Assembly (NCBI GenBank): GCA_947455595.1
Contig: CANGOP010000003.1
Location: forward strand, 62,001-126,000
Length of the DNA: 64,000 bases
Direction: 5' to 3'
Source: Gammaproteobacteria bacterium
Lineage (GTDB): Bacteria > Pseudomonadota > Gammaproteobacteria > Steroidobacterales > Steroidobacteraceae
Shown: positions 30,444-30,786 of the stretch, piece after piece
Position numbering within the stretch: position 1 is the stretch's first letter
Layout of the letters: every line of letters begins with the position of its first letter
Made by a program: the position numbers and the translations under genes
Notes under the pieces: generated by a model
What the model saw: the letters and a program-made list of their open reading frames with translations, nothing else
Databases searched by the model: none
What the model was told of the DNA's origin: nothing

Positions 30444-30786
30444 TGGTGGGCCCGCAGGGATTCGAACCCTGAACCAAGGGATTCACTTGTCCCTGTGGTT
30501 TCCCACAGGAGTGGACTATCTCTTCACCCTCGCCTGCCTATAGAGGCTGCGGTCGGGTGCGGGACGCTCTAGCCTGTTTTTCAGGACGCTCGGGCTAAGC
30601 CCAGTCCACAGGTAGTCTCTGCACCTTCCGGCGGTCTACCGCCGGCTTGGCTCAGGGTTGCCAGCGCTCGCGCGGTGAGGTTTCCCTGAATTCATCCCGT
30701 CCACTTCGGGTGTTACCACCCGAAGGCACCATTCCGTCCGAGACGGATCGATGAGTCCCCTGCTCTAACCGTTGAGCTACAGGCCC
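30444..30786 (-). tRNA. tRNA-Ile(CAU) interrupted by a group I intron
   Basis: On the minus strand the 5' exon (30786-30751, 36 nt) and 3' exon (30483-30444, 40 nt with encoded CCA) join into a normal 76-nt cloverleaf. Acceptor stem GGGCCTG pairs with CGGGCCC including one G-U. The D-arm is GCTC/GAGC, the anticodon stem GGGGA/TCCCT with loop CTCATAA, and the T-arm CAGGG TTCGAAT CCCTG. The anticodon is CAT in DNA. GGGGACTCAT and the short variable loop fit the minor isoleucine tRNA, whose C34 is converted to lysidine by TilS to read AUA, rather than a methionine tRNA. The split falls right after the anticodon. Confidence 0.95.
30484..30750 (-). ncRNA. Self-splicing group I intron (IC3-like) in the tRNA-Ile anticodon loop
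   Basis: A 267-nt intron inserted between anticodon base 36 and base 37. Core signatures are the P7 strand GCAGAGACTA (30622-30613) and its partner GATAGTCCA (30520-30512), plus GAAACCT and CAACCCTGAGCCAAGC for P4/J-P6. P2 is closed by a GUAA loop, a 7-bp stem near the 3' end by a GAAA loop, and the last base is G. An internal guide GUG near intron bases 22-24 can pair with exon CAU, giving the conserved U-G pair at the 5' splice site. The core closely resembles the Azoarcus tRNA-Ile intron. There is no homing-endonuclease reading frame. Confidence 0.94.

Follow-up and report, generated by a model that had tools for sequence, protein, structure and literature searches.

The locus analysed here raises two linked questions: whether a group I intron interrupts the tRNA gene on which reading of AUA relies, AUA being a rare isoleucine codon that is decoded by tRNA-Ile(CAU), and, if so, from which lineage that intron comes. 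The explanation that we favour as a whole, with a probability of about 0.8 and on the basis of sequence comparison, is that a self-splicing intron with a P7.1 element lies in the only tRNA-Ile(CAU) gene found in the genome, that it belongs to a lineage shared with phages, and that it would have been inherited mainly vertically since.

An Interrupted tRNA-Ile(CAU) Gene

The gene occupies positions 30786–30444 on the minus strand of the window, the whole stretch of 64,000 nucleotides that was analysed, and is split after U36, directly behind the anticodon. Its 5' exon (30751–30786, 36 nt, bases 1–36) ends with CTCAT, which includes the anticodon C34 A35 U36, the intron (30484–30750) comprises 267 nt and has G as its final base, and the 3' exon (30444–30483, 40 nt, bases 37–76) encodes CCA. 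The joined exons form a 76-nt cloverleaf, and the coordinates given in the initial annotation, with the insert between bases 36 and 37, hold. That annotation had also identified the insert as a group I intron and proposed the corresponding Rfam covariance model as a check; the model matches over its full length (RF00028, window 30763–30492, model positions 1–253, 67.1 bits against a cut-off of 50, E 7.8e-15) and is the only Rfam family above its gathering score in the whole window. A simple scan found no sigma-70-like promoter for the interrupted gene.

The splice junction was placed by requiring a U just upstream of the 5' splice site and a G as the last intron base, two rules that were imposed on the relatives too. 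The sole junction in the window that fits both is CAU/AA (...GGGGACTCAT/AATCCC..., the slash marking the junction), giving tRNA-Ile(CAU). With the same rules imposed, this junction recurs in 97 of the 131 loci examined in the family, and chance is therefore excluded. ARAGORN run without introns reports zero tRNAs in the window, and with introns it recovers the gene and the 267-nt intron, places the splice two bases off and names the product tRNA-Gln(CTG), a misnaming repeated for the intron-bearing tRNA-Ile relatives examined. The glutamine assignment was rejected, as it would need C at the 5' site, and so was tRNA-His, for which the intron would end in A. A CAU anticodon together with the acceptor pairs C4–G69 and C5–G68 constitutes the identity recognised by TilS. 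Both pairs are present with CAU, the acceptor starts with GGGCC in all 218 joined tRNAs of relatives, and the window tRNA has the matching 3' side. An assignment to tRNA-Met was dismissed, since the acceptor carries these Ile2 pairs and the methionine tRNAs of the genome are other genes.

All 38 tRNA matches in the genome were read, and the only other tRNAs with a CAU anticodon are the elongator (L011) and initiator (L024) methionine tRNAs. Neither a second tRNA-Ile(CAU), which the initial annotation had named, together with a lack of splicing, as able to overturn it, nor a tRNA-Ile(UAU) was found among these 38 matches in an assembly that is 87.7% complete. Some common tRNAs, such as Ile-GAU, are absent from this assembly as well, and, given its incompleteness, the case for the interrupted gene as the sole tRNA-Ile(CAU) is strong but not final. 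TilS, on which the product had been said to depend, is encoded in the genome (TIGR02432, 150.1 bits, cut-off 93.6), and AUA is in use: in eight ORFs near the locus, it accounts for 14 of the 213 isoleucine codons.

The precursor of the only tRNA-Ile(CAU) gene found would thus carry a 267-nt self-splicing intron, whose guide GUG is predicted to pair with the anticodon CAU. A guanosine (GTP) bound in P7 would attack after U36, and the freed exon would then attack after the terminal G, positioned by P9.0, so that U36 becomes joined to A37. Since the anticodon loop would be intact only after splicing, decoding of AUA should depend on it, with TilS subsequently converting C34 to lysidine to yield an isoleucine tRNA. 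Lysidine at C34 and t6A at A37 are both isoleucine identity elements (PMC9976931), and because the intron parts U36 from A37, we infer that both modifications should follow splicing.

Architecture of the Intron

The structure was assessed on 130 aligned tRNA-Ile introns, drawn from 223 introns that represent 190 different sequences, the genome sets overlapping. Intron length ranges from 198 to 319 nt across the 97 family copies, and the 267 nt of the window intron leave no space for a homing endonuclease gene of usual size. P1 (30727–30753) consists of the exon CAU paired with the guide GUG, including a U36–G wobble, and of an intron hairpin CCGUC/GACGG; the guide, which unlike CAU was not imposed, stands opposite CAU in all 130 aligned introns, and the hairpin, at −8.3 kcal/mol, is weakly better than shuffles (z only −1.3). 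P2 (30704–30725) is closed by a GUAA loop of the GNRA type, with 91.7% of its cells paired compared to 61.2% in shuffles, and it folds with a z of −5.5. The 5' strand of P3, CGGGATG (30693–30699), pairs with its 3' strand CGTCCCG (30560–30566), located in the alignment of 130 relatives, in 99.0% of cells and is mostly invariant. P4–P5 (30651–30690, UUCAGGG ... CCCUGAG), placed by the Rfam alignment, is nearly invariant, whereas P6–P6a (30624–30650), comprising the GAGCCAAGC block and a hairpin, is 99.7% paired in P6a with 102 double-changed cells.

The guanosine-binding site lies in P7, whose 5' strand GAGACTA (30613–30619) pairs with TAGTCC (30513–30518, placed by the Rfam match and the alignment) in 130 of 130 introns and is invariant. 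Between P7 and the 3' strand of P3 stands a P7.1 hairpin of 40 nt (30573–30612), made of a lower stem CCUGU/ACAGG, an upper stem GGAC/GUCC and a further hairpin GGGCU..AGCCC. In the upper stem, all 520 cells of the 130 introns are paired and 79 of them are double changes, compared to pairing of 87.3% on average and 89.4% at most in shuffles, and the window P7.1 has a minimum free energy of −15 kcal/mol (z −2.6), with 5 of 200 shuffles equally low. P8 (30525–30559) is 98.6% paired with 15 double-changed cells. The 3' part (30485–30512), read from the alignment, contains P9.0 (30510–30512 with 30485–30487), paired in 96.9% of cells compared to 81.0% in shuffles (maximum 85.1%), and P9 (30492–30509), whose L9 loop is GAAA in 127 of the 130 introns. 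The terminal guanosine (omega G) is at 30484 in the window; its presence in 130 of 130 introns and the constancy of the U are imposed by the junction rules and are not independent evidence.

Covariation is strong in P2, P6a and P9 and extends to the upper stem of P7.1 and to P9.0, while almost no variation occurs in P3, P4, P7 or the lower stem of P7.1, which are thus without covariation evidence, P3 being no better than shuffles. The P7 strands, core block, GNRA loops and terminal G that had been noticed in the sequence alone are all recovered here.

Distribution and Relatives of the Intron

RF00028 matches occur in 119 of the 217 genomes sampled from the family. Of the 131 loci, 97 hold an intact intron in tRNA-Ile(CAU) at the same junction (95 with P7.1 and two of the Azoarcus type); the other 34 comprise six tRNA-Ile copies cut by contig ends or N and 28 loci that are introns in tRNA-Leu, tmRNA or 23S rRNA genes, a remnant (L131) or unclassified (L038 and L082), four weaker RF00028 rows not being taken as separate loci. 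With two further genomes added by pattern search (G053 and G139), the intron is present in 104 of 217 genomes, 102 with the P7.1 type including cut copies and two with the Azoarcus type. An uninterrupted match, defined by the anticodon arm with up to two mismatches, is present in 78 genomes, and neither form in 35, probably owing to incompleteness or deviating sequence. This pattern had matched 79 genomes, of which only G067 was read singly; its candidacy as a carrier of both forms was rejected, the second match being a tRNA-Met-like gene starting with GGCGGCG. The search of related genomes that the initial annotation had called for thus found no genome of the 217 with both forms, and the intron and the uninterrupted gene are mutually exclusive as far as searched. 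Six intron genomes are rated 100% complete (G071, G094, G151, G171, G179, and G205 with the Azoarcus type). The remnant L131 is a partial, rearranged copy, and its genome, G187, has an uninterrupted match as well.

A quick tree of the 95 P7.1-type family introns requires 12 changes of genus label, compared to a minimum of 11 and a mean of 56.4 after shuffling; inheritance within the family, judged by these labels, therefore looks mainly vertical, in line with the first part of the proposal of a vertically kept or transferred relative. Presence and absence are mixed inside some genera, as in g2, where 35 of 58 genomes have the intron, 16 an uninterrupted match and seven neither. An RmuC gene neighbours the intron at nine of the 13 loci of the genus of the window, its own included, and at both g6 loci, while the other neighbour, an M15 peptidase, was found at just a single locus, in g1. 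Four intron-bearing and 13 intron-free loci of g2 share a homologous flanking ORF, which by eye resembles RpoD and lies on the opposite side in two of the four intron-bearing ones.

The family also contains group I introns of other kinds. IC3-like introns follow U34 of tRNA-Leu(UAA) in several genera (L137, L138, L140–L145, L147, L148, L150, L155, L156, L159 and L161), and one more (L157) may have tRNA-Leu(CAA) as its host gene. Four loci in g11 and g25 (L151, L152, L154 and L160) are by eye tmRNA T-loop introns, with long insertions between P7 and P3' and a core unlike the tRNA-Ile type, whereas L063, L071, L108, L120 and L032 are apparently introns in 23S rRNA genes, the last two with LAGLIDADG-like reading frames by eye.

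Outside the family, relatives were sought with a signature that specifies 30 positions of the P6–P7–P7.1 region and that matches at least 119 stretches in named genomes. The matches listed include isolates of Lysobacter, Luteimonas, Dyella, Rhodanobacter and Pseudoxanthomonas as well as many metagenome-assembled genomes, among them Woeseiaceae, Granulosicoccaceae and Acidiferrobacterales. In a sample of the order, the signature with up to two mismatches is found in 138 of 396 genomes, with exact matches in seven of 16 families; a reversed control pattern matches 11 of the 396, so a few of the 138 are due to chance. Among 398 genomes that thinly sample the phylum, the signature with up to one mismatch was found only in the source genome itself, and no match to the intron was found in the plasmid collection. 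Junction analysis of 137 stretches from the named genomes and the order (the order loci L320 and L323, with two mismatches, stand outside it) assigned 135 to tRNA-Ile(CAU), some of them cut by contig ends and some read by eye, one to a Hymenobacter tmRNA gene (L253) and one to a chance match (L336). L253 places an intron with the same P7.1 in another gene and another phylum, the Bacteroidota. L235 and L317, from metagenome-assembled genomes named as an actinomycete and a haloarchaeon, respectively, carry the tRNA-Ile form of the intron, likely through wrong binning or naming. As the named-genome and order sets were fetched by patterns holding the CCTG start of P7.1, the presence of P7.1 in them is a consequence of the search; the family introns, of which 95 of 97 have P7.1, were instead fetched with RF00028.

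The signature is also present in eleven viral contigs. The intron interrupts a major head protein gene in L351 and L354; in the former, the reading frame of an HNH endonuclease extends into the intron core, and in the latter the 5' exon likewise ends with CAT opposite a guide GTG. The head protein gene of L354 seems to hold two introns, the CAT exon and GTG guide belonging to the first. L359 and its near-copy L360 have the intron in a family A DNA polymerase gene, and, by eye, L361 has it in a tRNA-Leu gene of a tRNA array and L356 in a tmRNA-like T arm; in L358, an endonuclease frame adjoins the intron core. Three contigs differ (L352, L353 and L355): they hold the intron-bearing tRNA-Ile close to a gene for a tyrosine integrase, which was searched for in L352; in these contigs, the interrupted tRNA-Ile(CAU) gene is probably also the host integration site, with the integrase downstream. 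Nine INPHARED phage records share 21–33% of the intron at 75–79% identity, two of them being the same Vibrio phage 11895-B1 with the match in its terminase gene.

Subgroup and Origin of the Intron

The initial annotation had proposed kinship with the IC3 intron of Azoarcus, a reading that the region between P7 and P3' does not support. Apart from a P7.1/7.2 extension between P7 and P3, the IA2 intron td is similar to the IC3 introns of Azoarcus and Synechococcus (PMC4498298), and a phage intron was assigned to IA2 by its P7.1 and P7.2 (PMC3428280). Where an IC3 intron would pass from P7 straight into P3' with neither P7.1 nor P7.2, the window intron has its 40-nt P7.1 hairpin; it forms one stacked hairpin, and the separate P7.2 of IA2 is not seen. 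P7.1 is absent from all 18 IC3-like tRNA introns of the family, 16 in tRNA-Leu and two in tRNA-Ile; the latter, L132 (G205) and L133 (G196) of genus g23, are 198-nt Azoarcus-type introns at the very same tRNA-Ile site.

The remainder of the core points the same way. With P7.1 cut out, 44 of the 130 tRNA-Ile introns were compared with the other types, leaving out the 23S rRNA introns, L131, L358 and L361 (on both of which the cutting rule failed) and L360. Their mean core identity is highest with five viral introns (74.6%), followed by the Hymenobacter tmRNA intron (71.2%), the Azoarcus type (L132/L133, 60.6%) and the tRNA-Leu introns (59.4%), an order unchanged when the columns of the search signature are removed (70.9, 67.3, 55.9 and 54.7%, respectively); the tmRNA introns of the family are about 57% identical. 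Support of 95 is the usual bar for ultrafast bootstrap. In a core tree of 122 columns, with the truncated tRNA-Leu rows L143 and L161 dropped and with no named IC3 or IA references in it, the tRNA-Ile P7.1, phage and Hymenobacter introns are split from the rest at 91%, below this bar, the far side holding the IC3-like types, the tmRNA type of the family and L082. The Azoarcus-type and tRNA-Leu introns group together at 98%, and the tRNA-Ile set itself at 70%. The intron would accordingly be placed, under an inferred subgroup name, in a P7.1-bearing, group IA-like lineage common to phage introns rather than in the Azoarcus-type IC3.

We consider it quite improbable that the intron descends from the IC3 lineage of Azoarcus, with its position retained or gained vertically and the extra hairpin added later. 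Such an origin would account for the shared insertion site, the same three-base-pair CAU:GUG guide and the similar P4–P6 block (GGCAAC.C.GAGCCAAGC), and the split opposing it stays at 91% rather than 95, but it has to face the higher identity of the P7.1-free core to phage introns, the separate 98% group of Azoarcus-type and tRNA-Leu introns, and the missing P7.1 in IC3-like introns of the same site. A second choice concerns the direction of transfer within the phage-shared lineage, for which the core tree gives no preference. That the tRNA-Ile intron came first and was picked up by phages is unlikely, yet deserves some weight: the grouping of tRNA-Ile copies by genus makes them look old, and the phage contig L354 has the CAT exon end and the GTG guide. 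A mobile source would, however, be expected to leave copies in several genes, as seen in phages (head protein, DNA polymerase, tRNA-Leu), and endonuclease frames inside or beside the core, as in L351 and L358. The P7.1 lineage thus probably derives from phage introns and was then inherited.

Two further alternatives concern function. An interrupted gene that is dead, with another tRNA reading AUA, is conceivable insofar as an incomplete assembly may hide a copy, but it is highly improbable, in view of the conserved exons and core and of the 104 intron genomes, none with an uninterrupted tRNA-Ile(CAU) found and six rated 100% complete. Splicing in the cell only with a protein helper, which some group I introns require (PMC3984707), would suit an exon guide helix of just three base pairs and is rather unlikely. 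The full core, the GNRA loops and the conserved P7.1 and P9.0 speak against such a need. The Azoarcus intron, moreover, self-splices with an equally short guide.

On the preferred reading of a phage-shared P7.1 intron, the lineage would have settled at this site in gammaproteobacterial ancestry and been kept mainly by vertical descent. We can speculate, at about even odds, that two group I lineages, IC3 and a phage-borne, IA-like one with P7.1, colonised U36/A37 independently, that the latter perhaps came from a phage gene with an exon ending in CAU, its guide GUG thus matching the anticodon from the start, and that it then long persisted as a fixed passenger without an ORF across Gammaproteobacteria. 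If so, these lineages would rely on a phage-derived ribozyme to decode AUA. The presence of two intron lineages at the same position lends itself to asking why the anticodon CAU of tRNA-Ile was repeatedly invaded and whether phages seed tRNA introns, and introns with and without P7.1 between the same exons form a ready pair for probing the role of P7.1 in folding. There is a practical side as well: tRNAscan-SE, according to its authors, is not designed for such introns (PMC8450103), and as ARAGORN misses or misnames the gene, roughly half of the family will seem to lack a tRNA that reads AUA, whose annotation is likely wrong in many genomes.

Group I introns of tRNA-Ile2 are already known from Azoarcus, whose pre-tRNA-Ile intron is named in PMC3984707, and from several Acidovorax and Burkholderia species (PMC8450103), and the earlier statement that few bacterial tRNA introns of this kind are described stands only in a relative sense. 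The P7.1 lineage at the tRNA-Ile site, its breadth in Gammaproteobacteria and its phage link seem to be new: no P7.1-type tRNA-Ile intron of Gammaproteobacteria appears in the literature searched, which comprised titles and openings of abstracts with most subscription journals outside its scope, and the supplementary list of PMC8450103 may name such genomes. Among the known systems, the IC3 intron in pre-tRNA-Ile(CAU) of Azoarcus sp. BH72 comes closest in placement, as it likewise lies after U36, sets a guide GUG against CAU, ends with G and has GNRA loops in L2 and L9. It differs by the absence of P7.1 between P7 and P3', as described in PMC4498298, and the Azoarcus-type introns of the family share only about 61% of their core with the window type. 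The tRNA-Ile2 introns reported from Acidovorax and Burkholderia are likewise group I introns in the same tRNA (PMC8450103). The phage IA2 introns of T4 td (PMC4498298) and the DNA polymerase of Pf-WMP3 (PMC3428280) have a P7.1(/P7.2) extension at the same place, and viral relatives found here also lie in a phage DNA polymerase gene, as does the Pf-WMP3 intron. The window intron departs from them by its one stacked hairpin with no separate P7.2 seen, its cellular tRNA host and its lack of room for an ORF. Acidovorax and Burkholderia are Betaproteobacteria, unlike the gammaproteobacterial source of the window. Finally, a P7.1 region is present in the family of tmRNA T-loop group I introns (PMC11915505), and the Hymenobacter tmRNA intron shares P7.1 and 71% of the core with the tRNA-Ile introns; tmRNA T-loop introns differ in host gene and site, and those of the family itself remain at about 57% core identity.
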